Assembly (NCBI GenBank): GCA_963965975.1
Contig: OZ014418.1
Coordinates: forward strand, 3,236,775-3,300,774
DNA from: Xestospongia bergquistia
Taxonomy: Eukaryota; Porifera; Demospongiae; Haplosclerida; Petrosiidae
Length of the DNA: 64,000 bases
Direction of reading: 5' to 3'
A model generated the notes under the pieces. That model was given only the letters and a program-made list of their open reading frames with translations, was not told where the DNA came from and ran no database searches. Position numbers and translations under genes: made by a program. Position 1 is the stretch's first letter; each line of letters begins with the position of its first letter. Below, piece after piece: positions 2,871 through 52,100 of this stretch.

Positions 2871-4642
2871 TAGTGTTTGAATAGGACTTATTGGCATGTG
2901 GTAGCATCGCCTACATAGGGATGGCCCGGATTATCCATTGAAATATATTTGCAGGAAACAATGAATATCTCACTAAAACTGTTCAAAATGCTTGAATTCT
3001 TTGCAGTATTTCTTTCTATGACAATCATTTTATTATGACTCTGTTATAGGTTAAAGCAAGGTGCCTAACCATCACAATTGGTCAAATGTTGGGTTTATTC
3101 ATATTTGCTCTGCTACCACTTTTTAACTTGCAATAACCTGATAGCAATAAGGAGTTTGTATATATAATTCACAGAAATAACACACTTAACTACAAAGTAT
3201 GGCCTCTTGTAGGACTACTTTTGAGCTGCTTCCAAAACAAACAAGAGATTTGAACAGTTTAGTAGCAAGAGCTACTCATAGAGAAGCCATTTTTATGAAT
3301 AATTAATATTAACAGAAAGAAAAAGATGTGATCATGAAATCATATGTAATAGTAGGTCTAAAATCATAGTAATTTATTTCTGGCAGTAAGTATAGACTAT
3401 TTCTTGCTTGGTGTTTAGCTTGAAAAAGATCAAAAATCATTACTGTATGACTGATAATCTGGTGATTGTAAACCTAGCTACAATGCATTGAATTAAGTTT
3501 TATAAATTTTAAATATTTGTATACCTTGTGTAGAGAATTCATATTTTGCTATGCTATTTGTAATGTTGCACAGTTGCAGCTTAATACTCATGGGCATGAT
3601 GCTCATCATAAGGCTTCATTTTGCATGCACAAGTTTTATTACGAAAGTTAGTATAGTGGCAGAAAGGTAGTGAGTTTATCAAACACTAATGATAGATTTG
3701 AATGATACTTTTAAGAGTTAAAGAAGCATAATAATACATACCAAAGATGTCTTGGAAAGACTGATTATGGTAAATTGGAATTGATTAGAGAACACTTTAT
3801 TATCAAATTAGATGTACCATTTGTGGCCACCAGTAAGCTAAAAAAACTGAATAGCTTCTCAACTGCAATTTATGTATATAAACAGGCACAGACTATGGAT
3901 GTATGTGCTCATATGAAACAATATGTACAGCACATACTACATATCATTGGATATAATGCCTGCAACAGCACAACATACATGTACAACACCTGAAATGGTG
4001 CAGTACATTCAACAGATGGAACAGTGTAACAACATAATAAATGTAACAAATGCAATACACACAGCATATACAACAAATTCAATAGATTTAATAATTATAT
4101 TCATCAGTACTACTGTGCAACAGCTGTAATGACACAATACATGCACCACATGCCAATACCACAAATAACATATTGCAATGCAATGCAATAGATATAACAT
4201 CTGCAACCACAAAACACATGCTATAAATGTAACACGATGCAACACAAATACAACACAATGCACACAACAACAGGCTCAAGATATGCAAGAGGGAATCACA
4301 GTCATATAAATCTATGGAACAGATACAATCCATGTGCAGACAGTTTATTGTTTTTCACCAGACCAGCCTGTTCAACAGAAAACATTGCCTGAATGATACA
4401 ATAAAGCAGAATCATTGGTTAAATGGTTAACAATATTTTTTCTTCAGCTTCAAGGAAGACATTATATTCCAGACAGAGCTATGAACAATTTATTTAAATT
4501 TATTTCAGCCATCCCTACATATTATTACGTTTTTACAAAATATTTTTATTTACTTGTTATAATTATATATTTATGAAGATTTTAAATGTCATTGTTTTAC
4601 TTGTTTTGTTTAGAACTGGTGGCTTTATTTCAAAGACAGAAT
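2871..4642. other. Spacer between the two HELZ2-like genes
   Basis: No convincing gene. At 3880-4290 the plus strand is strongly enriched in ACA, CAACA and TACA runs (many copies of short CAACAC/AATGCA words), low-complexity sequence that creates spurious open frames on both strands. At 4409-4515 a short open stretch (SLVKWLTIFFLQLQ..) resembles decayed coding sequence but I cannot assign it. A usable acceptor lies at 4611-4612 just before the first exon of the next gene, so that gene may have an upstream non-coding or short coding exon in this spacer. Confidence 0.4.
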
Positions 4643-7600: not shown

Positions 7601-10600
7601 AAGGGCAATACTGAAGAATTAGTAACCAAAGATTGTATTTTAAAATCATATCAACAGGCTATTCAGAAAATACCCACATACAAATACTCCAAACTACAAA
7701 TATCAGATGAACAGGGTGACACTATATGGGATATAGTTGAAAACTCAGTTAACCAAAACACAAGTAACGATAATGCTGGAATTGACAAAACAAATAAAGT
7801 AGTAACTTGTGAATTGTCTATTATAAATAAGCATCAAGCCAAAGCATTTCCTATTAATGATGTACAGCATTCAAATCCAATAGTAATTAATGGCTATAAT
7901 CACAGGAGGGGTGCATTTGATGGGGATATAGTTGATGTACATGTATTAGGTACACATCCAGACAATGTCAATGAGGAATATGGAAAAGTTGTATTTCTAA
8001 GAGAAGCAAGACACCCTATGAAGTATGTTTGTACAGCTGACCAATACAATATTATCAATTTCTACCCTCTCGATAAATCTGTTCCTACTATTGTCAACTT
8101 GCCAAAAATTTCACGAAACCTATTGAGCTATCAGGATCAAGATATGCATGTTAATTACATTACTGTTTTCAGAGAATCATCATTAAAATGTATACATCCC
8201 AAAGATGATCACCTCCCGCAAATTAAAGAATTAATTCCACATGACATGGCACAAAGCCTTTTGTTTGTTGTTACAGTTCTAGGTTGGGCACCTAAATACA
8301 GGAATCCACTAGGAGCTGTAGTGGAAATATTACCACGTACAACCAACCTTTTCTTTACAGAAAGGCTTTTAAGCATTGTCTATGAGTTTGAGACAAATAA
8401 TGAGATCAATGATATTGATATAACACTTCAAGAACCAGATAAAAACTGTGTTAGTCCACATTATGATCGAGCATTTACTATTGATCCTCCAAATTCTATT
8501 GATCTTGATGATGCTATCAGTTTGGTTCCTCTTCAAGATGAAGGCAAATACAAATTAGCTATACTCATTACTAATGTTGCCAAGCACATCCCCAAAGACC
8601 ATCATTTTGATAAATTAGCTAGACAAAGAGGAACTTCAATTTATGGTGGAAATAAAGTTAAGCATATGCTACCAGTTAAATTAACAACTGAAACTTTCAG
8701 TCTTAACTATAATACAACTCGTGATGCATTAGCAGTAACAGCCACTGTGGTGGTGAAGGAAGGAAAGATATCAGAGGTTTTGTGTAATGAGCCTGAAAAA
8801 GTCCAAGTTACATCTCAAGCTCAATTAACATACAAATCAGCACAGCAAATTTTAGACAACAAACCAATTGAAGATGAAGTGTCCTGTACACATGTCAGAG
8901 AATTCAATTTGAAAAATGGTGAAAGATGTATGCATACAACTATGCACTTACTGTTTCAAATTGCAATGCATTTGCGGAAAAAGCGTTTAAAGCAGACTAC
9001 ATTCTCAGGTGTGTCAGAAGCAGGTGACAATGATCACAAAAGTTTGCATTCCCATCTACTTGTTTCAGAATTAATGATCTGGGCCAATACAAATATAGCA
9101 AATTATTTGCTTGAAAACCTTAAACAAATGGTACTACTTTGTAGACAACTGCCACCCCTATCAGAAAATCTAGCAAAATTTAAGGAAACTTTCCAAGGAA
9201 CTCTCTGTTATTCTCTGGCATTAAAAATGTATTCTCAATTAGAGGAATTAGATGAAAAAAATTGCTTAATTATTACAAATTCTACAGTCGATTGTTTGAA
9301 AACAGCCTTTGAAAATGGTGACCAGGGAAAGATTCTCTGGGCCTTGTCTAATGACCATTTATATCCTCAACTTGCTAGAGCTTATTCAGCACTAAGAATG
9401 ATTAGCCAACGTGCTGAATATATTTCAGCTGAATTAGAAGAGTCCTCAAAAAGGGTTGATAATAGTAGCAGTTGTAATTTGGCACATTATGGCCTACAAG
9501 TTGATGCCTACACTCATTTCACATCTCCAATTCGACGATATTTTGACATACTTGTACAGAGGCTTGTTATAGCATTACTAGATAGTGATGATATCACGTA
9601 CAAACAAGAAGAGTTACAAAAGATATGCACTCATCTTAACATGAAAGCAAAAATGGCTAAGAGATATGAACATAGCATTAGTAAAGTTCTCTTAGCAAGA
9701 AAATGTGAAAGTGGATTAAAATGTGTTCAAGCGTTTGTGTCACAACCTTTCCCAACAGTCCAAGAGCACAAGTATCAACTCTGCATCCCTTCACCTGATT
9801 TTAATTATGTTTCTGATGTAGACACTCGATTTCAATATTCTGACCTAAACATAAACCGATACCAAAATGAAAAAGAACCAAAATGGCACATTGTTTTAGC
9901 TTCACTGGATAGTAGTCACAATGACCTACTTTGTGATCCTCGAATGAATAACTTCACAAATGACCCACCAATACCAATAGAAGAGACAAGTGACATATAT
10001 TGTTGTGTAGAAGCTAGTGTATTCAGTTATCTTCAGGCATCTGAAGAGTTGAAGGATGATCAAAAGCAAATGAAACGTGTCAAATACAGAGCTTCAGTTA
10101 TTAACAATACATTTGAAGTGTCATCAAGTGTATGGGATCTAGCTCATCAATACCTTAAATCACCTTCACAAGAAAATATTAGTAGTTTAATAGAAAATCT
10201 TCCTAAGCTGCCACTTCCAAATAGTGGAAGTAGACAACCACTATTCTCTGAATTCTCAAACAGTCCTGTTGTTATATATGATATAACAAGGTCTTTCCAA
10301 CCAGGTGAAGTTGTAAATGTGTGGTTAGGAAAGTCATTGAAACAACCCCTGCCATCTCCTGAATTACAACTAATGGAAATAGCTCCCACTTTTAGAGTTT
10401 GTGTACAACACAATCAAAATCCAGTTCTTTGCTTTTCTGATGTTCAACTACAAAAAGCATCTCTTGAACAATATCATTCTATTGATGAATATGTTCAGCT
10501 TTGGAGCAAAGTACTAGTTGCTGAAGCAGCATATGAAGGTATAAACACTCAAGTGATAACAATGATTAAAAATGCTCGTTTGGAATGGCCTAAAAAGTTG

Positions 10601-13600
10601 GTTAGTGTGGACAATTGTATTGATGACAAACACTATAAACCAGATGGTGAACTGACACTTAATATTCCATCAGAAAAAGTCAATATTTTTGAATTCATTA
10701 AAGTCAAAGTTGGTGACCTAGTGTGTGTTCGATATGACATCAAGGAGGAAGAACATGTCACAAACTACAAAAAAGAAGGTCATAATGAGGAGAAACTTGT
10801 CACTATATTTCATTTTGTCATTACTAAAAAGGATAAGTTGACAATGGAAGGTACTAGAATAGTCAAAGCAGTTCAGTTGTCAATGAAGGCCATGGGAAGT
10901 CATTGTTGGATATCGGAAAAGTTAAGGCCATATTTGGATCAGTGCCCATATTGTGAAATGCAAATTATTGCAATGCCTATTTCTTTCAAGTATGATATCA
11001 TTTAGTTATGATAACATTACATTACAATGTTTTGTTTTATAGTCGAGTGTTTAATCGTTTACAATCTGGTTTGATAAAAGATGCTCCTGATTCTCTTGAT
11101 GAAAGTGATAACAAAAACAAATGTTGGTCAGCACTTGCAAGCAAAATAGCAATTGGACTGGGGCAACATGACAACCTTTCTTTTACTGGAGGTCAGTTTT
11201 AGTAAACAGGCATAGTTGTTACAAATAATATTTTAGTGAATATTGATTCTTTAAACATTTATGGAGATATCTTTGCTTCGAGATTGTGGGAAAACAGTCG
11301 TATTCGATTGAATCAGACTCAAATGCAAGCAATAGATCTTGCACTTCAACATTCATTTCATCTGATTCAAGGACCACCAGGTAATTGTATACTGTAAACA
11401 TTTTTTGCATATAAATAATGATCCGTGTCTCATTTATAAAGGAACTGGCAAAAGTGTGGTCGGAGCACATTTGGCATATATTTTTTCAAAAATAAATGCT
11501 TGTTCAGACAAATGTATTCTTTATTGTTGTCCTTCAAACAAAGCAATTGATGTTGTTCACAGTAAGTATAGCTAGAATTAAACTCAGAGTTTTTACTTTA
11601 TCTAGAAAAACTGAGGTATTTGAATACTATTATTAAACAGCTTCGAATTATTTGTCTTTATGGTAGCACTCATGAAAGAGTGGATTATCCTGATCCTTTT
11701 GATGACTTAAGTTTACAATCAGATAGAGGCAATCACAAACAAGATGTTGAGGGTCGTTGTTTACTTGAACTCAAAGAAGACGCTTTACACTTTAAAATTA
11801 GACAAGAAAATCCTGAAATTGAAACAATGAGATTAGAATATAAGAATCTCATCGAAAATGAAAATATCATTCCTTCTTTATTGGAAAGAAATAGGTATAA
11901 TGAAAGAAATCATACTCTTTATCACTTATTATTTATATGTAGATACAAACAAGCTATTAAAAGAGCAGAGAAAAAAATATTACAAAGGCAGTATGATGTT
12001 ATTCTATGTACTTGTAATGAAACTTGCAGTGGAAGACTTCTCAAATTTGCAGAAGCTGGTAGAATAGCTCAATGTATAATAGATGAGTGTGGTATGGCCA
12101 ATGAACCTGAGACTATAGCAGCAGCCAGTCTATGTGATCATGTAGTACTTATTGGAGATCATAAACAACTTCGGCCAATTATCAAATATCACATGGCTAG
12201 AGAATGTGGAATGGGAGTGTCTCTTTTTGAAAGATATGCAGAATTAAGACCTGACTTATTAATCTCCTTAGACACACAGTATAGAATGGTGAGTTTTTAC
12301 TGAATCAATCAAATGTACATTACTAGATAACAAACTACCAATTGATATCAGTAGTAAAATTATTAGAGTCTTCTAAAATGAAACAATAACTATGGAGTTT
12401 TGAAAGGATACCTTGACCATAAACTGTATATACAGCTTGTGATACTTGACATCAACATTAACAGTTATTTACATGTTTATTTTCCAAGAAATCCTAAACA
12501 AGAAAATCAATGCAAATTCTTCTCAATGTAGAATTGTTAATAATTTGACTAGTAAGCTTTTTATTTATTTATTTAAATAACAGCACATGACTTCATCCTT
12601 CATCATTTTATTTTGTAGCACAAATCTATTTGTAATGCACCTTCAAGATTTTTTTATAAAAACAAGCTACAAACTGACATAACTGTGAAATGTCGACGTT
12701 CTCTGAGTCCCACAATTAATCAGTTTTGGCCATCAGTACATCCTATTGTTGTGTTTGATGTCATTGAAAATTACATTACCAGTGACAAAATATTTACAGG
12801 GAAATTTGATATCCATTCAAAATCTAACTGTACCGAAGCTCTAAAAGTTGTGAGTAAGTATTATTTAGTAAACATTTATTGTTGGTTTTTATTGTTATAG
12901 TTGGAAGTTATACAAGAACTATATATTAAGCACAATATACCATATCAAAATATGGCTGTGTTGACTCCTTATGCTGCTCAAAAGAATCTTATCTTTCAAA
13001 TGATAAGAGATGATTTAAAACTGAGTAAAGAATCAAGACCTAAAGTAACAACTATTGTTGAAAGTCAAGGTTAGATATAATTTTATTGTATGTTTGCTTT
13101 CATAACAGAAATAATGTTATTATTATATCATAATACAGGTGATGAATATGATATTGTCATATTAACAACAGTAAGATCATTACCAATTAATGAAATAAAA
13201 GATCCTAAATTTGTTCAAGCTGATCGCAAATGGATGACAGACAATTTAGGATTCCTTATAGACGAGCATCAAGTAAATGTGGGAATTACTCGTGCTAAAC
13301 ATGGATTAATTATTATTGGTAAGAAGACTTCATACTGATTCAAATTTAGCTTACATAATTGGTACATTTTAATAAACATACTTGATTATTTGCTATATTT
13401 TAGAATTGTACCAGCATTTTATATAGATAGATAGATAGATTAGATAGGTATGTAGGTAGGTAAGTAGATAGATATTATTGTTATTTAAAGGCAGTAAGTA
13501 GATGCTTTTCATATACCTCCTGTAGGAAATACTACCTTGCTGAAGTACAATGAAACATGGATGAAGCTACTCAAAATATATCATAGCTATGGATGTGTTA

Positions 13601-25198: not shown

Positions 25199-26095
25199 AA
25201 GTGGCGTAGCGAGACTGGGGCATACTGGGGCACGTACTCCAGTACTGTTAAAATGTGCCCCAGCAACTTCAACTTCCATACTAATAAATAAATTAAATGT
25301 TTTTACAATCAATGTTAATTATGTTATTATAGTAAAGTGGGGATTGGTACTAGTTTACCATATATGTCAATTTAAGTGGCTGTAAGCCTGTAAATACGTG
25401 TGTGGTTTCTCAAAACCACTGGAAGGAAAGATGATAGTCTTGAAACCGCTAGTATTGGTGATAATCTGAGGATCAACCTGTATTATTCAGTCCTTGACTC
25501 TTTCATATTAGAGTTGAATCAGCGTTTTAGTGAGAAGAACAAACAGCTAATGAGATCTCTTCAAGCTTGTTCTCCTTTTTCCTCTCATTTCCTAGATATG
25601 GCTCATTTAAAACCACTGACCGACGCTTATGAGTTAGACTCAGAAATGCTTTCTCATAAAGTACCTTTAGCAAAGCATACTCTGGATGGAAAACATCTTA
25701 CTGACATTACTGATGTCCTGGTAGAACTTGTACCCTTGGGAGTAGCTTTCCCTACACTGCTAAAACTTACTTTAACAATTCCTGTTAGTACCTCTAAGTG
25801 TGAGCTTTCATTCTCCACTTTAAAAAGAACAAAAACTTACCTACGCTCTTTGATATCTGAAGCAAGGTTGAACAAAATGGCAATAATGTCCATAGAGAGA
25901 GACATTGCTGACAATCTTGTCCTTGAAGAGGTTGTTCAAAAATTTGCCAAAGATACATGTAATAGAAGGATTCTTTTAGATTAATAAAAATTGTAATGAA
26001 TGATGTAATTATGATGCATTGAAATTGAATAATAGTACTTTATGGTTGTGCCCCTACTGTGCCCCCACAGGTCTTCCCACCTGGCTACGCGACTG
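25199..26095 (+). mobile_element. Internally deleted hAT DNA transposon
   Basis: Ends AAGTGGCGTAGCGAG (left) and, inverted at the right, CAGTCGCGTAGCCAG match at 12 of 15 positions and resemble hAT termini (CAGTGGCGTA type). The element is flanked by a perfect 8-bp duplication ACAGACAC (25191-25198 and 26096-26103), the length expected of hAT insertion. At about 0.9 kb it is much shorter than an autonomous hAT and keeps only the 3' part of its transposase gene. It lies inside a larger inverted-repeat element. Confidence 0.85.
25394..25984 (+). pseudogene. hAT transposase C-terminal fragment
   Basis: An open frame of about 195 codons without a proper start (open from 25394, first Met well inside). 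It contains the hAT C-terminal dimerisation region: LTLTIPVSTSKCELSFSTLK, then RTKTYLRSLISEARLNKM, as in ZMYM/TTF-type animal hAT proteins. The N-terminal zinc finger and most of the catalytic domain are missing, so it cannot act alone; the frame is uninterrupted, which suggests recent deletion rather than long decay. Confidence 0.8.
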
Positions 26096-30222: not shown

Positions 30223-30377
30223 ATGATTATTTATTAAATTTGACAAAAAGTTCTTTTAAAAAATCATAACTTGGATTCTAACAGTATTGGTGACCTGTTT
30301 GCAAACAACACCAAGACCTATATAAAGCAAATGAATAAACATTATATCAACTATATTATAGTAAACTAATTTGCCTG
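30223..30377. other. Left flank of the CACTG-ended transposon
   Basis: Short intergenic sequence between the oxidase fragment and the transposon; it ends in TG, matching the TG that follows the right end (possible 2-bp target duplication). Confidence 0.4.
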
Positions 30378-30655
30378 CACTGAAAAAAATAATTTCTTAT
30401 ATTAACATAAATTGTTAAAGTAGCAAACTATTATAATGACACTAATGTGTTACAGTAACCATAAGATGTTATAACAAAAGAATTATTGTTAAGTTAACAC
30501 AAAATGTTAAGTTGAAGTAATGTAATAGTAACTTCATTTTATATTAACATAGTTTGTTAATTTTACAAGCTGTTATAATAACAATAATTTGTTATGTTGA
30601 CTTTTATATGCTATAACAAAATGCATTGCTTCAAGTTAACATAAAAAATAATGTT
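30378..30655. repeat. Left subterminal palindrome array of the transposon
   Basis: At least eight variants of TGTTAtAAtAACA-like words (for example GATGTTATAACAAAAG, ATTGTTAAGTTAAC, GCTGTTATAATAAC) spaced about 20-30 bp apart beside the CACTG terminus. Candidate transposase binding sites by analogy with CACTA elements. Confidence 0.65.
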
Positions 30656-30989
30656 TCGGGCTATAAGTGTCAATTTGCATGTTTTACTTTTACAGAACAC
30701 TGTCTAAACTTGAAAGAGTTATGTCATTGAACACACCAATATCAGCAATGACTTGCATTGATGAACATTAATTTTCATTGAAAATGATGGTTGTTTAGTA
30801 CACGTCTCTCAAAGGTATGAACTGGAAGGCATATATAAAAATAATTGATCACAAAGAGAAATTAATATTTTTTAAAATAAAGAATACAAATGCAATATAA
30901 TAAATATTATATATATAAATAAATGTTATATAAAATTATCATGAAACAAAAATTATTATTAGAAAAATTATTACAAAAACATGAAATAG

Positions 30990-33900
30990 TTATGAATTAA
31001 CATTACTTCGAACAGCAATGTACAGTTGTCCATCACCAATATAGGTATGAGAACAAAACGTGTATTTATTACAAAGTGAAGACAGCATTACAAGAAAATA
31101 AGAATGTAAATGAGATATTTGATAAGCTTGTAAATGGTTGTTAATACCTACTGTTCTATACTTTTCAACTTCAAAAAAAGGACAACATTTTACTACAAGT
31201 ATATCTCTAATTTTTACAAATTCAGGTAAATCATCATCCTGCCATCCACAGTGAATAAACTCATCACGGAAAAATTTTGTTCCATAAATACCAATCCAAT
31301 TTGGCCTAAATGATGAGGAATTGCATGAGAATTACTTCTATTTAATTTAAATTGCAATCACTATTAATTGAAAACAAAGTACGAGTGACTTTTAACACTA
31401 GTTGAATAATTGAGACTAGTTGAGTATCGTCACATTATGTAGCTGAATGCAATAACAAAAAGTACATGTAAACTTACCTAGAAATAAATAAATCTGAATC
31501 TTGATTTTCCAACAAAGAGAGAATATTTTGACATAAGGGATCATCAGCTAAACGAACTGAACTCTTAGTTTTACCTGTATAAACAACATAAAGAATGCTA
31601 CATTGAAATTGTTTAGTTATAAGGAAATTGAAGTGGGCTGTTAAGGTTTGTTATCAAACAAATAACTTTATATGTTACATGGCTCAGAGTGCACTACACA
31701 TATTAAAATGTACATGCAACCAACCATAGGGGTAGGAAGGGGGGGCATCCCCCCAACTTCAAATCAGGGGGGGCTAAGCCCCCCTGATTTGCACTCAAGA
31801 CTATGTACACAATAACCTCTTGACTGAAGTGGTTATTGTGTTAATTTATGTATATTAACAATCAATCACCACATTATTGTGTGGTCATGTTACCTTCTGT
31901 AAAATTAATTGCTATAACAAAAGTATTAATGCGTCAATGCATAATCAATGCATGTGTTTGATGTTTATAACCTAATTAGACTGTATCTAACTGTACCAAT
32001 GACTTCTGCTATAGCAAAACATACTTTTTCAACCTTATTCCAACTAAAAAATTTACCTACGAAGTACTATGACCCAAGAATGACTAAACCATGTCATGCT
32101 GTTACATACACATAAGGACCGTACTAATAACATAAACTTATTAGAAATAGGTAAAGAGTTTGTTTCTTTTAACGACAGACGGATTTCATTTTTGATGTTT
32201 AATAATATAATGCAACTAAATATAAAGTCACCCCCCCCCCCTCCCCAAATTAAACTTCATTCCTACCCCAATACATGCAACAGACTAAAGACAGAACTGT
32301 TGTGATGTGTAATAAATAATATTTATATACTTACAGGGTCCACATTCTAAGTCTTCATATGAAAAGAACTTTCCCTGCAGGTACCCACACAGAAGTTTTT
32401 GATGTCTTCTTGCAACTGAATATGGTACATTTTTAAAACAATTACCAATTTGTGCAGCTCTTTTAAAGTATGAATGCTTTGCTTCCATTCGCATACACCA
32501 GCTAGAAACCAATGGTCCTACTCTGCATGCCAAAAAAATAATATAATTACAATTATAATTTGAAGTGCTTGTGTGATTAAGACTAATACAATTGTGAATA
32601 CAGCCAATATGGTCATTCACAAAAGTGTTCTTATCCTCCATTGTGGAGGTTATGGGCTCCTAATTCTGGTATATAGAGTTACCTACTGTGTAAGTAATCG
32701 AGGAAAGTGGATCATATAGTGGAATTTTGGTGTGAGAGATACTTCTGGGTAACACATTTTGAAGTCAGAATGGTGTTGATCAATTAGAACTTTCAAATAA
32801 TTAGCAGAGGCTGAAGACGTTACTCTAGATGTACATATTCTCAAGATTTCCAGGAGCAGTAGAAAACATTCCCACAAGGGGTTATCTTCTGGAACTAGGT
32901 CACCAATTAAAAAGGGTAAAAAAATAGCAAAGTTCCACATTTGACTCGCTAGTAGAGATAAACAAATGCAAATCAATTGTGCATGTACTCAACATACAAC
33001 TAATTATGGAATTATACTTACACATTTATACAATACCTGATAATGGTAGCTTGTTAGAGGAGTCAGAGAAGTGAATTGCATTGAAGTCCTTTGGTGGTCT
33101 GTTTCTTGACTCTGCTCTACCATATGTAAAGTGCTTACATCTATTATTGAGAAAGTCTAATGTAAAAAATCTTTGAGACATGAAATTCCTCAACATCAAT
33201 TTTGTTTCCACTGGGAGGACTCCTTCTAACAAAACATGCATCACATCTTGTGGCAATTGTGAGTTTACAACATGAAACTGGTCAATTTTATTGAGTGGGC
33301 TTGGGTAGTTGATCCCATATGTGACCGAGTCATTTTTTGCTGTAGGACCACTTAATAGTGAGCAGTGGTAATCGTATGCAGTAGAAGAACGAAGTTGAAA
33401 ATCTTCTTCTTTAAACTTAAAAAAATCAAAATTTAAAACATTATACCAACATAATCAAACAACATGTACTCACCTTCAACTGAATATCTATATCAGTTGC
33501 CATACAGTCTCTGCACTTCCTTAGAGAAAGACCCACACCAACTTTGAAACCACCTAACTGATGTGCTGCTACAGTATCAGCTGAAAAGAACAGAACTGTA
33601 CCATGGAATCTTCGTGTCACACTTCCAGTTGTGACTAAAATACCATCCTAAAAGCAATAATAGTAAGGAATACAGCATTAATCAATATTTTACTCTTGAC
33701 AAAGTATTAACATCTTCAATAAAAGGTTGAAGAATTCGTTCAAATCCATATTTTTGAAGAATAGGACAGGAAACACATAAAATCAGTTGAATACTTCTTT
33801 GAGTTGAACGAAGTTCAGGACGAATGTTACCCAAAGTGTAATAAAACATTCCTTTAAACAGTTCAATCAGTAACTGATAATCAAATAACACACTTGCCTA

Positions 33901-34948
33901 GTTTATGAATGCCTGAATGGGAACCTAGGGGATTACATACCTCAATTTCATCAAAGTATGCTAATAGTTGAAGGGCATCTGCATGCTCCTGGTATAAGGG
34001 ATGACTTCTGAATAGATCACCATCACACACATCACCAATCATGTCGTCAGAACGTCCATGAGCTATCACAACCTACAGAATCAACATGCATGGAGCGAGT
34101 AAGGGAATCGAATATAAAGTCTACCTCATTCAATATTTCTGGGTTTTGTAATAAAGATTTAAGGCCTTCTAAAAGTGGTATATACTGATATGTATCTGGT
34201 TTATCACAAAAACGTCTTTCTGTCCCTGTCCCAGCTGAAGATAAGGTTGTACCTAATACCTTTGTTTGGGGTTCCTGTAGTATGAAAAGACATAAAAGAT
34301 TTTAATTGTTAATGGTCAAACGATTATTATTCTATGACGTACCACAAGACCAAAATGTTCTTGATAAAACTTATACTGTAGATACTCAGTACCAAGATTA
34401 GCAAAGGGATCAGTACAGTTAAAACATTCAGTAATATCAGGTAAAGCTACTTCTCCAGGACAATTTTCAAATCTTTCTTTCAGGTTTGCTTTCATGTCCT
34501 CAACCAAATAACCTACCATCCCTTTTATCTGCTGAATAGCCAAATCTAGTGCAGTTTGGGTGACAGAGTATCGTTCTTTTAGTGTCAAAAGGAAGAGTGC
34601 AGCTGATCTTTGCACCATAATTTTGTGATCCATATCTTTACATATGTTGTTTTCTTGTTGAATGAAAGAATGATTGTATTCATAATGCTCAGTAGAACTT
34701 AAACTATCTACACCAATATCTGCAGGGTCAGTTCTTGTAAGAGAGTGAGTAAGATCCAGATCATGAGTGGGGTGCTTTCTAGAGAGATGACTGGAGATTG
34801 CTGAGAAAGTCTGAAACGTTTGATTGCAGCCATCCACAGGACAGTTGAAGGAGAAATTTGGAAGAGAAGAATGAGACTCAAAAGTGTGACGTAAAAAAAC
34901 CCTCCACTTGCCACAGCGGAATGCACAGAAGCAGCAGCAAAAGGACAT
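30990..34948 (-). CDS. Transposase-like protein with N-terminal C2H2 fingers
   Basis: Exons read downward: 34948-34343, 34274-34125, 34072-33898, 33851-33694, 33647-33474, 33415-33037, 32948-32687, 32522-32335, 31574-31478, 31305-31148, 31126-30990. The sum is 2,484 nt, 827 codons plus stop, with every phase matching. The N-terminus has a Cys/His cluster (CCCFCAFRCGKW, then a classical CPVDGCNQTF..HLSRKH finger). The middle holds YDEIEVCNPLGS-type sequence (here FDEIEVCNPLGSHSG), YYTLGNIRPELRS, a CxxC (RKCRDCM) and QDVMHVLLEGVLP, which recalls the DxMH motif of tnp2/CACTA transposases; the C-terminal part has SSWCMRMEAKHSYFKRAA. One intron (33897-33852) uses a GC-AG pair. The frame at 34960 opens with GTG; the first ATG is 34948. 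Probably the element's transposase: binds its ends in the nucleus and catalyses cut-and-paste. I cannot name catalytic residues with certainty. Confidence 0.82.
31711..32281. mobile_element. Nested non-autonomous element with 10-bp target duplication
   Basis: A perfect 10-bp repeat TACATGCAAC (31711-31720 and 32272-32281) brackets about 550 bp lying wholly within the transposase intron 31575-32334. Near its ends are TAGGGGTAGGAA (left) and the inverse of TTGGGGTAGGAA (right), followed by G-rich and C-rich tracts. It contains two hairpins: AATCAGGGGGGGCTAAGCCCCCCTGATT-type at about 31767-31794 and CACAATAACC/GGTTATTGTG at about 31808-31840. No coding capacity. Family unknown. Confidence 0.7.
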
Positions 34949-35016
34949 GTTACCAATCACGTGATCTAACTGAATCCACCTTGTTGATTAAAATAATTGG
35001 CGCAAAAGAAACAGAG
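34949..35016. promoter_or_regulatory. Compact bidirectional promoter between the two transposon genes
   Basis: Only 68 bp separate the two start codons. A perfect 10-bp palindrome ATCACGTGAT, containing the CACGTG E-box core, lies at 34956-34965 beside the transposase start. The 5' UTRs must be tiny or overlap. Both genes are probably transcribed together from this site; that is inference from spacing. Confidence 0.55.
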
Positions 35017-37357
35017 ATGGTAGAGCATACGGCACCATTGAACATGATTTCTTGGTCTACTGAAAAGGTCGGTGAATGGTTAACAGAGAGAGGTTTTGAT
35101 GACGATATAAAGCAGGTTTTTATTGGTGAGAATTTGTTATATATGTATATATAAGTAATAACTTCGAATTCTTGACAAGGTGAAGAGATGGATGGGGAGG
35201 CTCTAGTGCAATCGTTCACTACTTGCTCGGGTCCAGATTGCTTGAAGGACCTTGTCCCTACATATGGGAAAAGAATAAAAGTGTATATGGCAATTAAAAG
35301 ACAACTTGAAGTAAGCTCTTTTGTTATAGTACACTAGAGAACATATCCACTATAGGATGAGGAAAAGTGGAAGGAACCAAGTCCATGTGATATTATACCC
35401 TTAAGCCCCATTGGATCTCCAGGAAGCTTCAGTCATAAGGTAGTAATTTGATGTATGTGGTATAATCATTAATCCTTACTACATATATGCATGAGGGAAG
35501 TTGATGTGAATATTGCAATTTATTACTGTCAGTTTACACATGTGAAAATGACTAATTTTTTGATTTGTATGTTAGTCTCCTGAAAGTAATTCATCTTTAG
35601 TGACAGGGAGAAAGGTACACATACAATATTCAAAGATTGATAATTATACATTTCATAAACTTTTATTCAACAGAAAAGTATATCTAACTCGCCTTCAAAT
35701 TCAATTAGCACAGTATCTGTTGCTACACTAAACTATGAGTCCCAACATGAAAAGTCAAGACTAAGACGAAAACGACCACTACAAGATGTTAGTATATATT
35801 GATGAATGCATTATGTTATATAAAATATCTATTTACAGATACCTGATCCCTTTCCCATTCCTGTTTTCCGCGAAAGCACTGAAACTAACCTTTCTAATGG
35901 TCGATTGGCTGATGATGATAGAAAATATATGGTAAGAGTACTGGCAACAATGCTCTGCTCCTATGTACAAAGACCATCAATGTGCCATTGTAAACTTGTT
36001 GCCACTTCCCTTGTCAACAACCATAAATTTTTAAAGGAACCTGTAAGTCACAAATATATGTATATTCATATTATTTTATATGTATAGTACTCCTTCTTTC
36101 TCTATTATTTATCTACCTATAATAGGACTCGTGGACCCAGTTTATTTACACCAGATGTCAAAACACAAATCGTGGCCAGCCATCAGTCCCACCCATTCCA
36201 AAGAAACCCAAAACTGATAATAACGAAAAACATGCCTATGCTTCAATTTTTGGGGAGGGGGAAGATGAAGTATCACAAGAAAGAAACAAAGTTTTGTTGC
36301 AACAAGAACTTGTAATTCATCCCAAGTCCGACTTAACATCTTTGATTCGCCGTACTTTTCCAACCAGACGACAGTGGATTTTGAATGATACCATCCCCGT
36401 AAAGGATATAATATCAGAATATCCTCATCTTTCTAAACCTGTTCATGTGAGTAATAAAACATAATGTATGGTCTGTAGTGTGATTACATCATGAACATAG
36501 GTTGCATTTGAGTTGGACCTAATTATGGACGTAACTTCATCATATGAAGCATTTTGCTACGAGTGGCCAAAGTGGGAATGTGCCATTATCAAATATGCTA
36601 CAGCTAGTAAATCTTTACCAAAGGAGCTACGTCAATATCTTTCTGATTCTGTCGATGGAGGTATGTCAGAACTTTTATTATAGGTATAACATATCAATAT
36701 AGATGAAAAAATTTTGCTTGCACTTCGGTCCCTAACGTACTTCATGGCTACAAAACTTAGGAAGAAAAAAGAGATATTTGTGGATTATTGTGTAATACCT
36801 TGTATTCTTATGCAAGCTCCTGTAAGTAAGAAGTGCACACACTTTAGTACATGCTAAAGAGTAATGACTAACCTCATTAACACCATCTAAATGGTATTTT
36901 GTGCTTGTGTGATAATTCATACCTAATATATGTGGTTTCTACATAGAATTGATATTAGCAATTATATCAAGATTCATTAATTACAGCAATTTAACACTAA
37001 TGTAATGCCATGTATTTCTGTTGTTATGTTATACAGCGTGGTACCCCACTGACAGAAGTTGTTGACAAAACGAACAACCACCCACATATTTTGAGGTTTG
37101 TAGATAGCGATGAGGATATTCCTCCTCAATATTTTATTGTTGTTGAACAAGACGTAGTTATGGAATCTACAAACTTTACTAGTGCTCTGTATCACTTGAT
37201 ATCAACTCACTACATCTTTAACATTTCGTATAATGTGACAGTCAAGGATGTTTTGTTCTTTATACAAAGAAAAGTTGCCAATTTTGATGATAAAAGTTTT
37301 AAAAAGTCTGCTGTTTACCTGTCTGTTGAATCTGGCATTGAATGTTATTTGGACTAA
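35017..37357 (+). CDS. SAM-domain protein of the transposon (SAMD3-like)
   Basis: Exons 35017-35125, 35180-35310, 35356-35439, 35576-35614, 35674-35787, 35839-36042, 36126-36446, 36501-36660, 36703-36821, 37037-37357; 1,602 nt, 533 codons plus stop. Residues about 10-80 form a sterile alpha motif domain (WSTEKVGEWLTERGFDD.., then DGEALVQSF..LVPTYGKRIKVY), a protein-protein or oligomerisation module. A Ser-rich linker with a basic KSRLRRKRP (possible nuclear signal) follows, then a conserved region (RKYMVRVLATMLCSYVQRPS, DSWTQFIYTRCQN, FPTRRQWILND) found in the multi-copy SAMD3-like genes I recall from fish and cnidarian genomes. Transcribed divergently from the transposase. A role as an accessory DNA-binding or regulatory partner, like TnpA in plant CACTA elements, is a guess from position. 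Confidence 0.82.
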
Positions 37358-37383
37358 CAAATAACATTCAATGTCAGATTCAA
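37326..37383 (+). terminator. 26-bp hairpin spanning the stop codon of the SAM-domain gene
   Basis: Left arm 37326-37351 and right arm 37358-37383 are reverse complements with one mismatch, and the 6-nt loop GACTAA contains the TAA stop. Transcribed on the plus strand it would fold into a stable stem-loop at the end of the reading frame. Role in 3' processing or termination is inference. Confidence 0.6.
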
Positions 37384-37489
37384 ACTCCATTTTTGTTTAA
37401 TCATACCTTCTAAATATTTGCATACAAATTATTGTGTTTTCTTTCTTCAGTCATTTTTTTGTCTATTTTTCATTTTTTCTATTTTGTTT

Positions 37490-37878
37490 CATAATTATTG
37501 TTGTTGAGTTAAAGAAATTAGTTGTTATATTAACAGACTTGTTTTCATTACAATAGAACATGATCTGTTATAGCAGCAATAGTTTTTATTACTATAACAG
37601 ATTTTGCTTTTCATTACAACGGGACAGGTCTATGTCATAATGACAATATTATTTGTTAGATAGACGAATTTTTGCTTTTCAAGGCAACAGAACAGGGTTA
37701 TGTTATAACAACAATATTATGTTACACTAACACATTTAGTTTTTTAATGTAACAGAACAAGTCTCTGTTATAACAACAAAATTGTTTTTGGTTATATTAA
37801 CAAATTTTGTATTGTTATATCGAATGCATCAATATAACACATATATTTTGTTACCTTAACAAATTTCTTTTATCAGTG
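37490..37878. repeat. Right subterminal palindrome array of the transposon
   Basis: About ten variants of the same TGTTATAACA/TGTTAxxTTAACA word as at the left end (for example GTTATATTAACA, CTGTTATAGCAGC, CTGTTATAACAACA, TGTTACACTAACA), running up to the CAGTG terminus at 37874-37878. Confidence 0.65.
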
Positions 37879-37879
37879 T

Positions 37880-40034
37880 GACCAATGTCTTGAGCAAGTT
37901 TTACAAGTCCCTCCTGATCAGCCACTTTCGCAAGACAATCCTGACCTTCCAATTCCCTATAAGGTGAAGTAAAGCAAACATGACCTATATCAGTTACATG
38001 TACTATCATCTAATGTTACATGCATTCTCTTAAAATTCTGGTTCTAAATTAAGTCCAGCTACATCGAGTGATGCCATCGCATTCTTTAGAATGTCAAGGG
38101 ACAAAGGTTCATATGTTGAGATAACACCTGTTATGATAAGGTTAATACCATAATGTACTGTTTATTTCACACTACTTACTACCTTTGCACAAAAGTTTAG
38201 CAGATAATGACTGTGTATTTTTATAAATAAGTTTGACAGTTTGTACACCACCTTTCTGATACTAAATACAAGCACATAACCTGAAGACATACAATACATT
38301 TAGAGTTAAATATATAGGATTACATACCCAAACACCAACTATAAAGGTTGAACGAGTCCTGCTAAAAATATTTGTGCTTTTTCTTGTCTGAGATGACTTG
38401 CTATATTAACTCTATCCACACAGCCTCTGTCTACCAAACTTTGCAATATCTTAACGAAGAGCTGTACAGAGTAATTATACAATTGTCAAGATAAATTTAT
38501 AATGATGATATTAAATTATAACTGAAATCATAGCCACTTAGGTTGTATGCGTCCCTACTGAATACATTGAAAAGCATTAACGATATATAGTGTTTTCATT
38601 ATTAACTTTATTTTATGTACTTATATAAAGAGCATGTATGCAGTATCTAGTAGCATGCAGGAATGAACTATTATAAATTCCATAGTGACAGGCTGACGGC
38701 TTTTACACATAGCCCTGGCATCTCATGCTCTGACAATTAACTACGTGACTTGTTAATTATAAAGTATATTTTAGTAATGACAGCATGTGATGTTTAATAA
38801 TTTGCACTATCTCATCTTGTGTTATATGCAAGTATGTAAATAACCATAGATTGGTTAGATCAAATGATCCATTTTACAGTGTTAACTTATACAAGGCAGT
38901 TGTAATCAATTATGTTATACATCTAATTTGACACACCTCTTCTGGTGACATTTGGGGCAGAACAAACTCTCTGTTTATACAATGTAACAAACCTTCTCTT
39001 GCTTCAACTTAAGAAAAACTACAAATAATATCATATCTACTTAAAGTACTAATACTTACGTTTAGATCTGGAAGTCTTAGCAATAATGCGCTATTTTGAG
39101 GTGTTCAAATCCTTCAACTAACACAACTGCCATATCTGTTGAGGTAAGTGGCTGCTTTTCAGCTCCTCAATCATAAAAGCTATACAAATGGTTATTACAT
39201 GTGTAATACATGAATCATGGCTACATGTAACATCTGGATTTTCATTCTTCTGAGATATATATTTTTTATTGATATAGACTGTTGTAGCTGAATATTGTTA
39301 AGTAATTTTAATGTAGAATAGATTCTTGTCAATTATAACAAAATATATTTCATTTTATAGTAGATCATTAATGCTAGAAATGGTCAACTGGATGCTGTGG
39401 TAAACTAAATGATGCCTTTCTCTAGTCTTTTCTTTTATTTTAGAGTACAAATGTTTCCTGATGTACTGGAGATGGGTATTCTACATCTAGTAAGTTGATA
39501 GAAACAGATGACTATTAATTGTTTTTACTATTTGTTCTATCTGTGTCATAGAAACTTGTTCTATACCAAATTATGATGACCTAACACTTATTTATCTACA
39601 CTGTAAAATTATCAGAACACAATGGTGTCAAATTCTATGGTCTTATACTAGCACCTGTATGCTATTTTAGCACTTTGGTGTTATGTCAGCACCTGATAAT
39701 CTTATAAAAAGTGAAATTGTTTAATGTTAAATGTGACTACAATTATATCACATGATCAAATACACTACTGTATTATGTAGCTATGAAAGTTTTTAAAAAT
39801 AAAAACACTTATATAATTATATACAGTTATATATGAATGTAATAGAGGTGTTGTAGATCCAAGGGTTATAGCTCTATTAATTTAGCCTCCTGAACACTGC
39901 TTTGTATACCTTGTTGAATTGTTGATCCAGAATCTGTCTTTGGTCTAGAGTCATTTTTATGTGACTTAATGGATACAGTATGCCTTCTCCTGATAACAGT
40001 AGGTCAAAACTTTCATCAATAACATTAGCTGCAT
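37880..40034 (-). pseudogene. Unassigned, partly decayed multi-exon gene
   Basis: Several splice-flanked open stretches on the minus strand: 40034-39910 (AANVIDESFDLLLSGEG.., CTCTGCAG acceptor, AACAAG|GTATAC donor), about 39,140-39,060 (LVEGFEHLK.. then, after a frameshift, LLLRLPDLN), about 39,010-38,940 (VEAREGLLHCINREFVLP), about 38,460-38,360 (LFVKILQSLVDRGCVDRV..), about 38,260-38,180, about 38,140-38,035 and about 37,965-37,880 (ELEGQDCLAKVADQEGLVK). The middle ones run on in a common frame and could belong to one protein, but at least one frameshift is needed and I do not recognise the family. The last stretch abuts the transposon's right end, which may have broken the gene. Confidence 0.35.
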
Positions 40035-46165: not shown

Positions 46166-49100
46166 TCATGGATGACTTAAATTAAACTGGGGAATGACAT
46201 AGCAAATGTCATCCTTCTTGTAATAGGCAACAGATAGAACACAGGTGTCCGATAGTAATTGTATCCTAAAATTAACCAGAAACATCAGAAACTAAACTTA
46301 CTAGCTTCACGTTAAAATCATAGCAATTTGTTACCAGTACCCTAGTTAGAGATTTTGAAATTAATAATTATACTGAAAGTTAATTTGATAAAACTAAAAG
46401 AACAATTAACAGGGTGAAATATGCAAGTTTTGATTAGTCTCTACTGTGACAGCTACTGGTGATATTTCAACTGAATCTAAATGTAAATAGAGATAATTTT
46501 AAAAATAAAATAAGACATACTGTCATACCTCAATTTTGACATGATTGTATCAGTTAAGTCATTTCGATTTAATTTCTCTCTTAATATAGCCACAAATTTA
46601 GTCAAAATATTAGCATCATTCTTAACAAGATCTGTTATTTCATCAAGAATATTTTCAAGGCGCTCCTTGTTTGTACTCCCACAACCTCTGTCCCTGATTT
46701 TCCTGTAAAAAGCCTCAGAAATGATCATTTCTGAATATAGTTTTCGTGCCAGATCAGAGGCGTCAATAGTTGATTCAACAATAATGTCAGTACAATGAAC
46801 TAGAGCTATCCTTGCCAAATTACAATCACTTGAGAAAGTATTATCAGAACCTGCATATGAAAAGTATTATTAATGAGTTTATCATAACTGATCAACATGA
46901 CTATCTACAATATAACACAAAATTATTTCAATTTCTAAACTATTAATTTAAGAAAAAAATAGCAACAAAATGAATAAAAGAAAAATTTTTAAATGTAAAA
47001 GCAGCCTTGGATGTAGATAAAACACCTAAATTTATCCCAATACAAGAATATTGATGTCTCTATATACGAGCCACATTGCTGCCACACTATCAAGGGCATA
47101 ATGTTACAATAGTTTACAGTAGACTTTCAGTCTGTTAGGCTTGTAACATTTGAATTATTAATTAGTTGAAATATGTTCACAACACTTGTTTTTCTTTATA
47201 ATTATAGGTTGGATAAGTGAACTGAGGATAATAATATACAACAAATACATATTGCTATATTTAATAATGATAAATAATGAATAATATAATTAGAAAGTAT
47301 GATTTTTTTAAAACTATGGATGTATAATAAAGCCAGAAATAGCTGCAATGTGCATTTTTGGTTGATCTTAAGAAACATGACAAAGATCTCTTGTTAATAA
47401 CTTCCAAAAGTATATTAAATCTTTTGTGATTGTTGTTAGTGTATGTTCTTGAGAAAAGCCAAATTGGTCAATAAAATAAGTAAGGGAGATTGTTTGCAAT
47501 GGATTGCTGCTTAACATTCTATAAACTGACCACTCTATGACAACAGGAATATTACTTGTATGCACTAGTAAACACTACATTATATTAACAATTCATAATT
47601 AGCATTTAGATAGCATATGGACCCTTTAGTTTACATTAATTAAAACAATTTAGAGACAGAAAAGTTATCATGTATCTTAATAAACGGTTGCTGTATGAAA
47701 CTGCTTAATAACTTTCATACTCACCAAGGGCAGTTATGTCATCTAAGATTTCAGTGTATACAATAGAATATATTTGATAAATAAATTATACCAGTGTTGT
47801 TTGTTAGTGTTACTTTGTTGTTAGTGGTTACATTTTACCAAATGAATTTATTGTACATTACAAAATGAGTCATGCTCAAATACTTTCTATTGCAAAGTAA
47901 TGATTCACTTTTGCTTAAAGAGTGGACAGCAGGGCCACAAATGGAACACTAACTTATTACCAAGGTATCCTTTCATAGATCCCAATTATAGTACAGAAAA
48001 AATAAAATGTAGTAAACAAGCAATCAAAAGTATTGTCATAATTTCCAAGTTGGTCACCTATCTCATATCATATAGACATTATAGCAATACTTTCTTCAGT
48101 GGTATGGAATCCATGATAATGTACAAATACACTATTGCCATTGGTAGATACATTAATTATAACAGCATTAGTGCAACTCATTAAATGTTTATTTGTTTCT
48201 GCAAACCAAACAAGAATCACATTAATATCTACCTTTAGACAAGATCCTGCTATTAGTGTAATTTAGAAAGTAGTTAAAGAGGTTCTATCCAGTATAAAGT
48301 GATTTAGGATTATTGCAATGTATTTACATGTTATCTAATTTTCTACAATGTTCTCAGTGTCAGAGATTACAATTTGCTAGGTGTGTTATCTAACCTTTCA
48401 GGCACTAAGGAGTGATTATAAAATATAATAAGGAACCATTAACACTATATTTACCTTTAAAGTGGAGTTCCTTAGATATAGTTTCTATCTCCTCTTCATT
48501 TAATGAAGGATAAGCAAGATCCTATAACAGAATATGGTATAATTATGATGCAGTACAGAATGTATGATACATGACATTACATTTATTGTATGCTCAAACT
48601 AACACATACTTACCAAAGGATTACGTCCAGCAAACACACTAAGTTGACTGCAATGCTCTTTTACTGACATGTAACTTAATGATAAAAGTGATGATGAGAA
48701 AAAAGAACATTTATTCACTATGTGTTGAAGGTCACTATGTGACAATTCAGCACTAAAAATTGCTTTTGTGACTGAAGGAGTAATGCAAAGGAAAGGGTCA
48801 TGAGCTCCAACAATCTGTTCAATACCTACCCTCTTGGTTTCGTTGTCATCTGTAATATAACCTTTTGTAAGCACTGATCGAGCAACATATTTTATATTAT
48901 AAAGTGTGCGCTTATCCATGAGAAGACTACGAGCTTTTCCTACATCACTAGGAGCAATGAGGTACTCTTCACATTCAAACGAGTGCATCTGACTTTTCAA
49001 TGTTAATATGACCCAAACAACATCATTGAAAACTTTGTGGCTTTTTTTAGTGTCATTCATTGATGTAACTACTGTAACACAACGATAGTGCTCTGTCATT

Positions 49101-52100
49101 TCAACAATAACTTCAACTTTATCATCGTCATTCTCCCAATAAATGCCATTTGTCCATACATCACATCGACGAGCTAACATTTGGACTTGTGGATCACCAG
49201 CAATTTTTCCAGCTTTGTTACGACGTGGAAGACAAAAAATGTAGGAAAGGCTAAAAAGGAGAAGATGAAGAAACCGTGTTGAGAGAAATTGGTTAGGATC
49301 AGGACACCAGAGGCACCATCCCAACCCATTTTCTATTTTAATATCTGTAGGGGGGTTAGCATTAATGAGGGATGGAAAAAATAACAGTTCATCTGATGGC
49401 AGAGGAACTGAAGCTGATATATTGGTTTTGAACATTTGTAGTGTATTAGTTTGTAAAACATGACAGAACTGAAGACTTCTAAGAAACCCAATTAACATAT
49501 GAATATCGTGCTTTGGAAATAATCTTTCCAGAACAGATGTAGGCACAATACCAGTATTACTAGCAATATCTTGATGGGCATGTTGGATTTCTTTTGGAGC
49601 AAAAAGGACACCATTGACTTCAGTGAGAAGAGCAGCTCTGTCAATAACTATCCAACTTTGAGCATCATCCTCATTTTTAAGGAATAAGATGAGACCTTTG
49701 TCACATAAAGTTGTTAGGAATTCCAATAAGACTGATCTTTCTGAAGGAAGTGAAGGGTCATCACGCTCTCTTAATGTGATACATAGCTTCTTTAAACTAA
49801 TAGCTACAATATTATCTTTGCTTCGAAGCAATTGCAAGAACGAGAATTGAACGTGACAGTAGAAACTAATTTTATTAGACTGATCAAGTACAGCTTTGCA
49901 GCTATAAGAAAGCATAGCAACAAACTCCTTGACACCTTTTCCACCAGGACGATGACATTCCATAGGTAAGAACCCACCGTATTCTTGTGAATGATCAGCT
50001 TTTTCAGCAACTTCAGCAACTACTTTTGATATTTCGTCACAACCATTGGTCATCTCATCAAGTCGACTTCCAATGACAAGTATTTGAGATGGCCTTGAGC
50101 TTGATAAACAAAGACTGACGTTCTTTATAAAATTAAACCAGTAATATAAATCACACTTAACGATGTGGAGATCGTCGGTCATCTTGGAAAGTATTGCAAA
50201 AACAGCAGGCGTGCTTAGCATGAGGTTTTCAAGAATGGCTGCATGACTACTGTAATACTCCTTATGCCCTGCAAGATCATAAAGGACAATATTTCCCACT
50301 TCATGACTTGAAAAGGTATGTGCATTAATTCCAGTAGTAAGTAAATCTACTGGAATAGGATCAGATGTGTCAAAGTCATAGTTAGGTGGCTTCTTAGCTC
50401 GTTCCATAATGACTGCTGCAAGTGAACTTTTACCTGCACCAGTGTTACCACAAAAAAAAACTTTGCTATAGGATTCTACAGGAAAGTCTTTTCGACATTG
50501 CTCAAAAGGCTCAAACATCTTTAAAATGCCAAAACGATTTATGTTGTCATGATAAACAAGCTCCATTGCTGTTTGATTGTGTAGGTTCTTAGCAATTGGA
50601 TTGACTTTTCCTGATGACAAAAGGGATTTCACAACATCACCATAACAACCCTGGCAAGCAGCATGAAGGGGTGTATCACCAATCTAAAAAAACAATATGT
50701 ATTTCCAGTCAACTGTAGTGATTAACATTCTATTTATTTTAGATTAAAACCATGACAATTAGAATTACTTTATTAATATCTAAATTTGAAAGCATTTTGT
50801 ATGTATTTTAGCTAGTTAATTATTATGTCACAAACCAACAATAAGATTTTTGTACTAATTAAAACATTGGTAGAATATTTTTGAAGAAATGAGAATTAGA
50901 CATTTTGAAAAAAGGCTCAATTCTCCATATATTAGTGATTTTTTTTCAGAAAAGCTTTAAAATGTATCTAATGAATTGTGTGCTTACTTCCTACAATAAT
51001 GTTTTGAGTAAGTTGGTTAAAATGTTTTGGGACATAGCATATGTTCTATATTAATCTTATTAATGAATAAACCATTAATGCATGTCACAACTTACATAAT
51101 CAGCAATGTCAGGGTTAGCACTGTTATTAAGAAGAAGCTGAACACATTCATTACTTCCTATCTCAGATGCAATGTACAAAGCAGTTTGGCCATTCTATGT
51201 AAATGTAAAAGCACAAATAACAAATGATTGTTAGTGTACAATTATATGTCAAAAATGTATTTCAATAAAATGCTACATCGTCCTTGTAACTAGTGACATT
51301 ATGAGGGAGAAGTTCTAATAGTATTAAAGAAATGTTAGACCAATATATTATACATTTGTTTATTTAATGAATAAACCATAAATGCATGTGACAACTTATA
51401 TAATTAGCAATGTCAGGGTTAGCACTGTTATAAAGAAGCTGAACACATTCATTATTGCCAATCTTGGATGCAATATGCAAAGCAGTTTGGTCATCGTATG
51501 TATACATAAAGGCATATAATAGAAATGATTGTTAGTGCATATATAAATGACATAAAAGTCTTTGAAAAAATGTTACATCTTTCCCTCTCACTACAGAAGT
51601 TTTGAGTTATAGTCTTCATCCTTAGGCTGCTGTGTGCTTACATAATGAACACATTTGAGTCAAACTATAACTATCACTAAGTAGCTGAATTTTTTTTCTA
51701 TAACATGTTAGAGTTGACATGATATAAAAAGGTTCAAAGTATCAACAAGCTGTTACAACTTACTAAATAACTGAATCAGATATAACATAGCACTTTATCA
51801 GATACAAGGCTGTGACATAACTTTGAAATTCTATGGTAATTATTTAAGGGACACACACATTATATATAATCCAACACAGATCATACTGTATTTCACATGT
51901 GTTTTGCTGTAACATTAACAAATCATGGGTTGTTGGCTGTTGGAATTTACATCACAACACCTGTACCTGCCATATAACCCTCATGGTTGTGTATGTATAC
52001 TTAACACTATCAATTACAAGTCAGCATACTTTGTCTCCAATGTTAACATTAGCTCCCCTGGACAGAGCATCCTTAGCACCTTCCAAATTTCCTTTTCTTA

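Follow-up and report, generated by a model that had tools for sequence, protein, structure and literature searches.

A recently mobile two-gene transposon of the sponge Xestospongia bergquistia pairs a putative DDE-type transposase with a putative SAM-domain gene

The 64-kb stretch of the Xestospongia bergquistia genome analysed here (the window; contig OZ014418.1, positions 3,236,775 to 3,300,774, forward strand) contains at positions 30378–37878 a recently mobile DNA transposon of 7,501 bp, which begins with CACTG, terminates with CAGTG and carries two head-to-head genes, a minus-strand transposase gene and a plus-strand gene whose product has a putative SAM domain. The pairing of the two genes recurs in divergent lineages of the same genome. 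The extent of the element is defined by five insertions with both ends and by their unfilled sites. The host genome (146.5 Mb in 21 contigs) was searched at the DNA level with each element end, followed by alignment of the copies. Complete CACTGAAA...TATCAGTG ends are present in five insertions genome-wide, namely the window copy and those at C1:13.79M, C3:6.84M, C6:2.19M and C1:4.69M. The four other copies differ from the window copy at 29 of 7498, 36 of 7499, 46 of 7473 and 55 of 3661 ungapped positions, with identities of 99.6, 99.5, 99.4 and 98.5% (gaps aside). The copy at C6:2.19M (L021) bears a 2,743-bp insert and the copy at C1:4.69M (L023) has lost 3,819 bp internally, including nearly the whole transposase gene. 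Four of the five insertions thus retain both genes, and L023 retains the SAM gene. The terminal inverted repeats extend over 30378–30407 (plus strand) and 37849–37878 (minus strand). The initial annotation had noted the CACTG...CAGTG ends, which are confirmed, and had proposed a search for further copies sharing them, which were found; the ends that it described as matched over 18 bp are indeed inverted repeats, but they are identical at only 15 of 18 and 23 of 30 positions.

All five insertions are flanked on both sides by the same dinucleotide (TG, CA, TG, TA and TA), in each case a pyrimidine-purine step. Flank comparison and reading of the junction place the two TG copies of the window target-site duplication (TSD) at 30376–30377 and 37879–37880. 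A 3-bp TSD fits none of the five insertions and was rejected. For each insertion the two 200-base flanks were joined with one dinucleotide retained and searched against the genome, and a paralogous unfilled stretch running across the junction was recovered in all five cases: C1:13741139 (98%, 400/400 bases), C1:4666976 (97%), C6:2225969 (95%), C3:6876064 (91%) and, for the window insertion, C8:6886211 and C1:7948876 (84% each). The sequence was read across all six sites, two of which belong to the window insertion. The junction is clean, gapless and with a single dinucleotide for C1:13.79M, C3:6.84M and the window insertion at both sites, one of which displays a 7-bp insertion/deletion (indel) 7 bp off the junction. 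The empty sites with a 2–3 bp duplication proposed as a check thus exist for all five insertions, with a duplication of 2 bp and a clean junction in three of the five. For four of the insertions the best unfilled paralogue (C1:13.74M, C1:4.67M, C6:2.23M and C3:6.88M) is on the contig and strand of the insertion itself, at a distance of 23–47 kb; this points to landing of the element in local tandem duplications or to local duplicates in the assembly.

Older and incomplete relatives accompany the young copies. Distant relatives on C2, at about 75% nucleotide identity, consist of decayed fragments of both genes, and several further loci recovered by the genome DNA search have the right end, accompanied by no more than a portion of the SAM gene. 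Two related fragments with the same inner deletion, at C10:3667k (L047) and C3:6814k (L048), retain the head-to-head junction with the 5' portion of each gene, as well as a more downstream portion of the SAM gene, and have no element end within the examined stretches. The 2,743-bp insert of L021, a nested mobile element, is located within the right subterminal array (C6:2188700-2198600, about 680–3406 of this stretch); its ends are TGT...ACA and its edges display an apparent GTTAC duplication.

The SAM-domain gene occupies 35017–37357 on the plus strand and comprises 533 codons in 10 exons (35017-35125, 35180-35310, 35356-35439, 35576-35614, 35674-35787, 35839-36042, 36126-36446, 36501-36660, 36703-36821 and 37037-37357), as defined by exon joining together with profile and PDB searches. 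The transposase gene occupies 30990–34948 on the minus strand and comprises 834 codons in 10 exons (34948-34343, 34274-34125, 34072-33898, 33851-33694, 33647-33474, 33415-33037, 32948-32687, 32522-32335, 31574-31478 and 31305-30990), as defined by splice sites and motifs read from the sequence. This model includes one GC-AG intron, and its last exon, taken as read-through, is the least sure. An earlier model of 921 codons in 12 exons had several incorrect junctions and was given up in favour of splice-site reading. The initial annotation had the SAM gene in its present form, whereas the 11 exons and 827 codons that it gave for the transposase are now 10 and 834. Its description of an apparently intact element holds for the window copy, in which both frames are open, but among the five copies the transposase frame is open in the window copy alone and the SAM frame in the window copy and two others. 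The two start codons are 68 bp apart, and the gap between them (34949–35016) is a probable shared promoter; in the alignment of copies, the gap and 25 bases on each side are the same in the window and three copies and differ in the fifth at 2 of 118 bases. A bacterial promoter scan of the gap was uninformative.

The assignment of a SAM domain to residues 12–46 of the plus-strand protein draws on several weak signs that agree, none of them over a cut-off. The region scores 20.3 bits with SAM_2 (PF07647; E 6e-4), the cut-off being 20.5, and the SAM_1, SAM_3 and SAM_PNT profiles match more weakly, none over cut-off. Eight PDB matches were obtained at E up to 10, with E between 0.05 and 0.83 (best 0.049); seven belong to chains of L3MBTL3, SAMD1/Atherin or Polyhomeotic and the eighth to a hypothetical protein, the two best being L3MBTL3 and SAMD1 chains at E 0.05 and 0.08. 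L3MBTL3, SAMD1/Atherin and Polyhomeotic are chromatin proteins. An NCBIfam search of the SAM protein gave nothing. A whole-genome search with PF07647 gave 98 matches, none at a paired partner locus, so the SAM domain is not seen by profile in the divergent partners. About 0.9 kb upstream of an unpaired SAM-gene match at C3:5220955, and on the same strand, there is a weak PF07647 match (C3:5219891, E 0.94), and the protein search matched the second half of the domain at C2:14264290 (51%) and C4:7596366 (38%).

The SAM gene is under purifying selection between two subfamilies. When the SAM exons of the window copy are compared with those of the internally deleted L023, differences are found at 16 of 534 third positions versus 5 of 1068 first and second positions (Fisher p 6.5e-5). 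The contrast among codon positions is only modest when the window copy is compared with the decayed C2 copies, as expected for dead copies. In the transposase gene the differences among young copies number 6, 3 and 6 at third positions versus 4, 6 and 7 at first and second positions (L021 and L022 taken together) and lean weakly toward purifying selection, as in the SAM gene.

Relatives of the two genes lie together at many other places in the genome. Protein searches gave 118 exon matches for the SAM protein and 98 for the transposase, which merge by place into 52 SAM loci and 34 transposase loci; 87 of the 118 and 70 of the 98 matches entered the pairing count, and those omitted lay in loci already listed. 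A transposase locus is located within 8 kb of 23 of the 52 SAM loci, with a head-to-head arrangement in 22 of the 23 pairings, and a SAM relative is located within 8 kb of 22 of the 34 transposase loci. Random placement of the SAM loci on their own contigs gives a mean of 0.37 pairings and a maximum of 3 in 2000 trials; the random controls rely partly on guessed lengths of C5, C7, C9 and C11–C14, and repetition over the known total length gives 0.21 pairings. Relatives of the two genes, many of them decayed, are densely clustered in C2:13.0-14.8 Mb. Ten of the 12 SAM loci within this cluster are paired (random mean 1.2, maximum 6 in 5000 trials), as are 13 of the 40 outside the cluster. The 22 paired transposase loci consist of four members of the young family, seven decayed C2 copies and 11 others, mostly with 35–67% amino-acid identity to the window protein, three of which (C7:3.90M, C1:22.23M and C1:3.26M) display an uninterrupted single frame.

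An extra set of putative transposases is provided by the motif WxMR(N/I/Y/F)ExKH, which resembles the surroundings of the transposase E and occurs at 39 places genome-wide, versus none for the reversed pattern; the window's own WCMRMEAKH falls outside the pattern. A SAM relative lies within 8 kb of 13 of these places, head to head in all 13, compared with a random mean of 0.27. This count set all 39 places against 61 merged SAM loci, made up of those new in a second SAM query (135 matches, twelve with equal scores), those unpaired in the first count and second exons at two paired loci. The same WTMRFEAKH 27-mer is found at 15 of the 39 places, ten of them head to head with a SAM relative and six of these ten at an identical distance of 3,332 bp, and these 15 places probably represent another young family built on this plan. 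As a control, a SAM neighbour was found at two of 34 loci positive for Transposase_21 (PF02992), one of the two head to head; these 34 were taken from 51 matches, with five over-cut-off matches beside listed ones and 12 under cut-off left out. When the matches of both SAM queries are merged by hand into 91 SAM-like loci, 37 have a transposase relative or a motif place within 8 kb, in a head-to-head arrangement in 36 of the 37. Because relatives of both genes recur together at so many places, the SAM gene looks like a long-standing transposon part rather than a host gene. The two-gene transposon of the initial annotation is real and the SAM gene is part of it; relatives of the SAM gene are not always alone at host loci. 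Searches of viral contigs recovered no relative of either protein (one pattern was without a match, and five other pattern matches included none that was related).

The minus-strand protein displays the residues of a putative catalytic site. Its N-terminus contains a C2H2-type finger, read from the sequence and matched by PF24757 at 15.1 bits against a cut-off of 25. Residues D293, D387, C408/C411, H624/H628 and E648 give a D, D, C(2)C, H(3)H, E layout in which C408 follows D387 by 21 residues and E648 follows H628 by 20, the corresponding spacings in RAG1 being 19 and 20 (H942–E962 = 20). The genome-wide profile search with Transposase_21 gave 51 matches, 39 over the cut-off and 12 under it, and five of the latter fall inside five of the transposase relatives: C7:3900588 (E 0.003), C1:3257787 (0.03), C3:5351186 (0.06), C1:4367444 (0.08) and C1:22233609 (0.085). 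The matches at C7 and C1:3.26M cover the part that corresponds to both D residues. Because of these weak matches, the window transposase is best read as a remote relative of Transposase_21 and not as an EnSpm member.

The element shares its general features with the CMCT clade, which includes RAG1 and for which the available part of the account by Kojima (PMC12730594) gives 5'-CA..TG-3' termini, a TSD of 2 to 5 bp and a D-D-E site whose E is preceded by C(2)C and H(3-4)H. CACTG...CAGTG termini and a 2-bp TSD are found in all five insertions, and the residue layout of the transposase is alike. In contrast, the lineage descriptions in the same part of that account include no SAM-domain second gene, and none of the lineages described there matches the ends and TSD of the element exactly. 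Three lineages were compared and do not fit. Plavaka has TGT..ACA or CATCA..TGATG ends (PMC12730594, section 3.2.2, as far as available), and ESTA has a TA target duplication (section 3.1.6, likewise), which differs from the TG, CA, TG, TA and TA targets observed here. The TRC elements of animals, SmTRC1 (PMC1636069) and Spongebob (PMC4298943), also referred to as TRC/Mirage-like, have a 2-bp TSD as does the present element and are assigned to the CACTA superfamily by their authors; in contrast to CACTG, their ends start with CCC, SmTRC1 has a recognisable Transposase_21, and the available parts of both papers mention no SAM gene. A search of the open literature, which covered it in part and left Repbase outside, found no SAM-domain partner of a CACTA-like transposase.

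The subterminal regions are dominated by TGTTA/TAACA half-sites. The left array (30378–30660) includes three full palindromes and the right array (37523–37878) five. The outer 250 bp contain 14 and 13 half-sites, compared with 0–5 per 250 bp inside the element, and of the ten TGTTA-N0-6-TAACA palindromes in the whole window eight, all with N = 0 or 3, are no more than 360 bp away from the ends. The palindrome-rich arrays noted at first sight are confirmed at both ends by half-site density and palindrome clustering. Ten-base repeat pairs number 20 in the last 400 bp (shuffle mean 1.7, maximum 10) and 9 in the first 400 bp (shuffle mean 2.3), where some shuffles reach 9 (maximum 11). The natural reading of the palindromes is a predicted dimeric binding site for one of the two element proteins.

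The insertions with TSDs, the unfilled sites, the shared ends, the 68-bp gap, the palindrome arrays, the selection on the SAM gene and the pairing across lineages are brought together by a cut-and-paste transposon of a two-gene lineage related to CMC/CMCT transposases, and we consider this reading probable. Both genes would be co-expressed from the 68-bp gap. The transposase or the SAM partner may bind the TGTTA-N0/3-TAACA palindromes as a dimer, while the SAM protein, made from the same promoter, could self-assemble through its SAM domain and, by analogy with some plant CACTA second proteins, help to bring the ends together or regulate the element. The SAM protein would in this way be a transposition co-factor. 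Cleavage at the CA/TG ends would be the work of the minus-strand protein, through a D-D-E site and zinc-binding C(2)C and H(3)H residues like those of RAG1/Transib/EnSpm, with strand transfer into a pyrimidine-purine step with a 2-bp stagger.

Several observations weigh against this reading. The two insertions with TA targets, C6:2.19M and C1:4.69M, differ from their unfilled paralogues by indels of 4 bp and 2 bp that lie directly at the junction or one base away; drift between the paralogues may account for these. The window transposase has no Pfam transposase match in the profile search, Transposase_21 included, and its PDB search gave no DDE match, the weak matches being two zinc-finger proteins and an RNA polymerase at E >= 0.8; a 227-residue piece gave nothing in NCBIfam. 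The catalytic layout was read in the window protein and compared with the old, broken C2 copies, where the segment with D and C(2)C is lost or cannot be read and the H(3)H-E segment survives only in part. No SAM relative was found near 12 of the 34 transposase loci (11 of 34 with the larger SAM set) or near 26 of the 39 motif places. None of the motif places overlaps a transposase locus from the protein search, for which reason they are taken as putative transposases, on the motif and the SAM neighbour. In addition, no partner was found for 54 of the 91 SAM-like loci; many of these are single weak exon matches and, as the searches score the best candidates only, partners may be missed. The unpaired loci are possibly solo copies or host genes.

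Among the other explanations the one that survives best, although we think it rather unlikely, is that the SAM gene is a long-kept passenger that aids persistence of the element through anti-silencing or transcriptional control by SAM-type chromatin contacts, with no role in cut-and-paste, comparable with the TET/JBP genes of fungal elements. The weak matches of its SAM domain to L3MBTL3, SAMD1/Atherin and Polyhomeotic are in line with such a role, and diverse DNA transposons keep genes of this sort according to the available part of PMC12730594. TET/JBP genes, however, span many superfamilies, whereas the SAM gene is kept with one transposase clade in one orientation and not with the Transposase_21-positive loci (2/34), the one other group compared. 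A more doubtful explanation is an ordinary EnSpm/CACTA element on the known plan of two open reading frames (ORFs), the second of which happens to contain a SAM domain. The plant CACTA (En-Spm) elements have two proteins, in the form of a transposase plus ORF2 (PMC4158355, in its available part). They have CACT ends, and their transposase TnpD works with TnpA; the present transposase may have a remote kinship to Transposase_21. Subterminal repeat arrays are found in the plant elements as they are here, and in the plant elements the second protein binds them. The maize TnpA and TnpD proteins come from one spliced transcript. In the plant elements the TSD is 3 bp and the end CACTA; in contrast, the sponge element has a 2-bp TSD, CACTG ends, separate head-to-head genes, a SAM-domain partner and a transposase with no Transposase_21 match, and 32 of the 34 Transposase_21-positive loci had no SAM neighbour found. 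Direct membership of CACTA/EnSpm was rejected on the TSD, the end and the profile result. A division of labour between two element proteins like that of TnpA/TnpD is plausible by analogy. That two unrelated genes were caught by chance between the ends of one composite copy is extremely improbable, as the same pair occurs in divergent lineages and four of the five insertions have both genes while the remaining one keeps the SAM gene, and nothing beyond the two-gene layout itself speaks for it.

Elsewhere in the window, HELZ2-like genes occupy 645–12300 on the plus strand, with AAA_11 helicase pieces, an RNB exoribonuclease domain (E 1.7e-56) and a HELZ2 OB-fold just over the cut-off. A hAT transposase remnant (Dimer_Tnp_hAT) is located at 25394–25981 on the plus strand, and a 694-codon reading frame at 48602–50683 on the minus strand displays an ankyrin repeat and weak Roc/GTPase matches.

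To our knowledge, two-protein CACTA systems have been worked out mainly in plants. The element described here is young, its ends are exact, one of its copies has both frames open and its partner gene has persisted through deep divergence; it makes directly testable whether a SAM-domain polymer is an end-bridging or a regulatory factor. Vertebrate SAMD3 and SAMD3-like genes, in whose products an N-terminal SAM domain precedes a long conserved region, are usually annotated as host genes; compared by description only, the SAM gene of the element recalls their general layout. We put forward, tentatively, that an ancient animal lineage of CMC type is a true two-component system with a dedicated SAM partner and that many animal genes annotated as SAMD3-like, perhaps SAMD3 itself, are live transposon genes or domesticated copies of the partner. 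The finding could also mean that a set of animal genes now taken for host genes should be counted as transposon genes.

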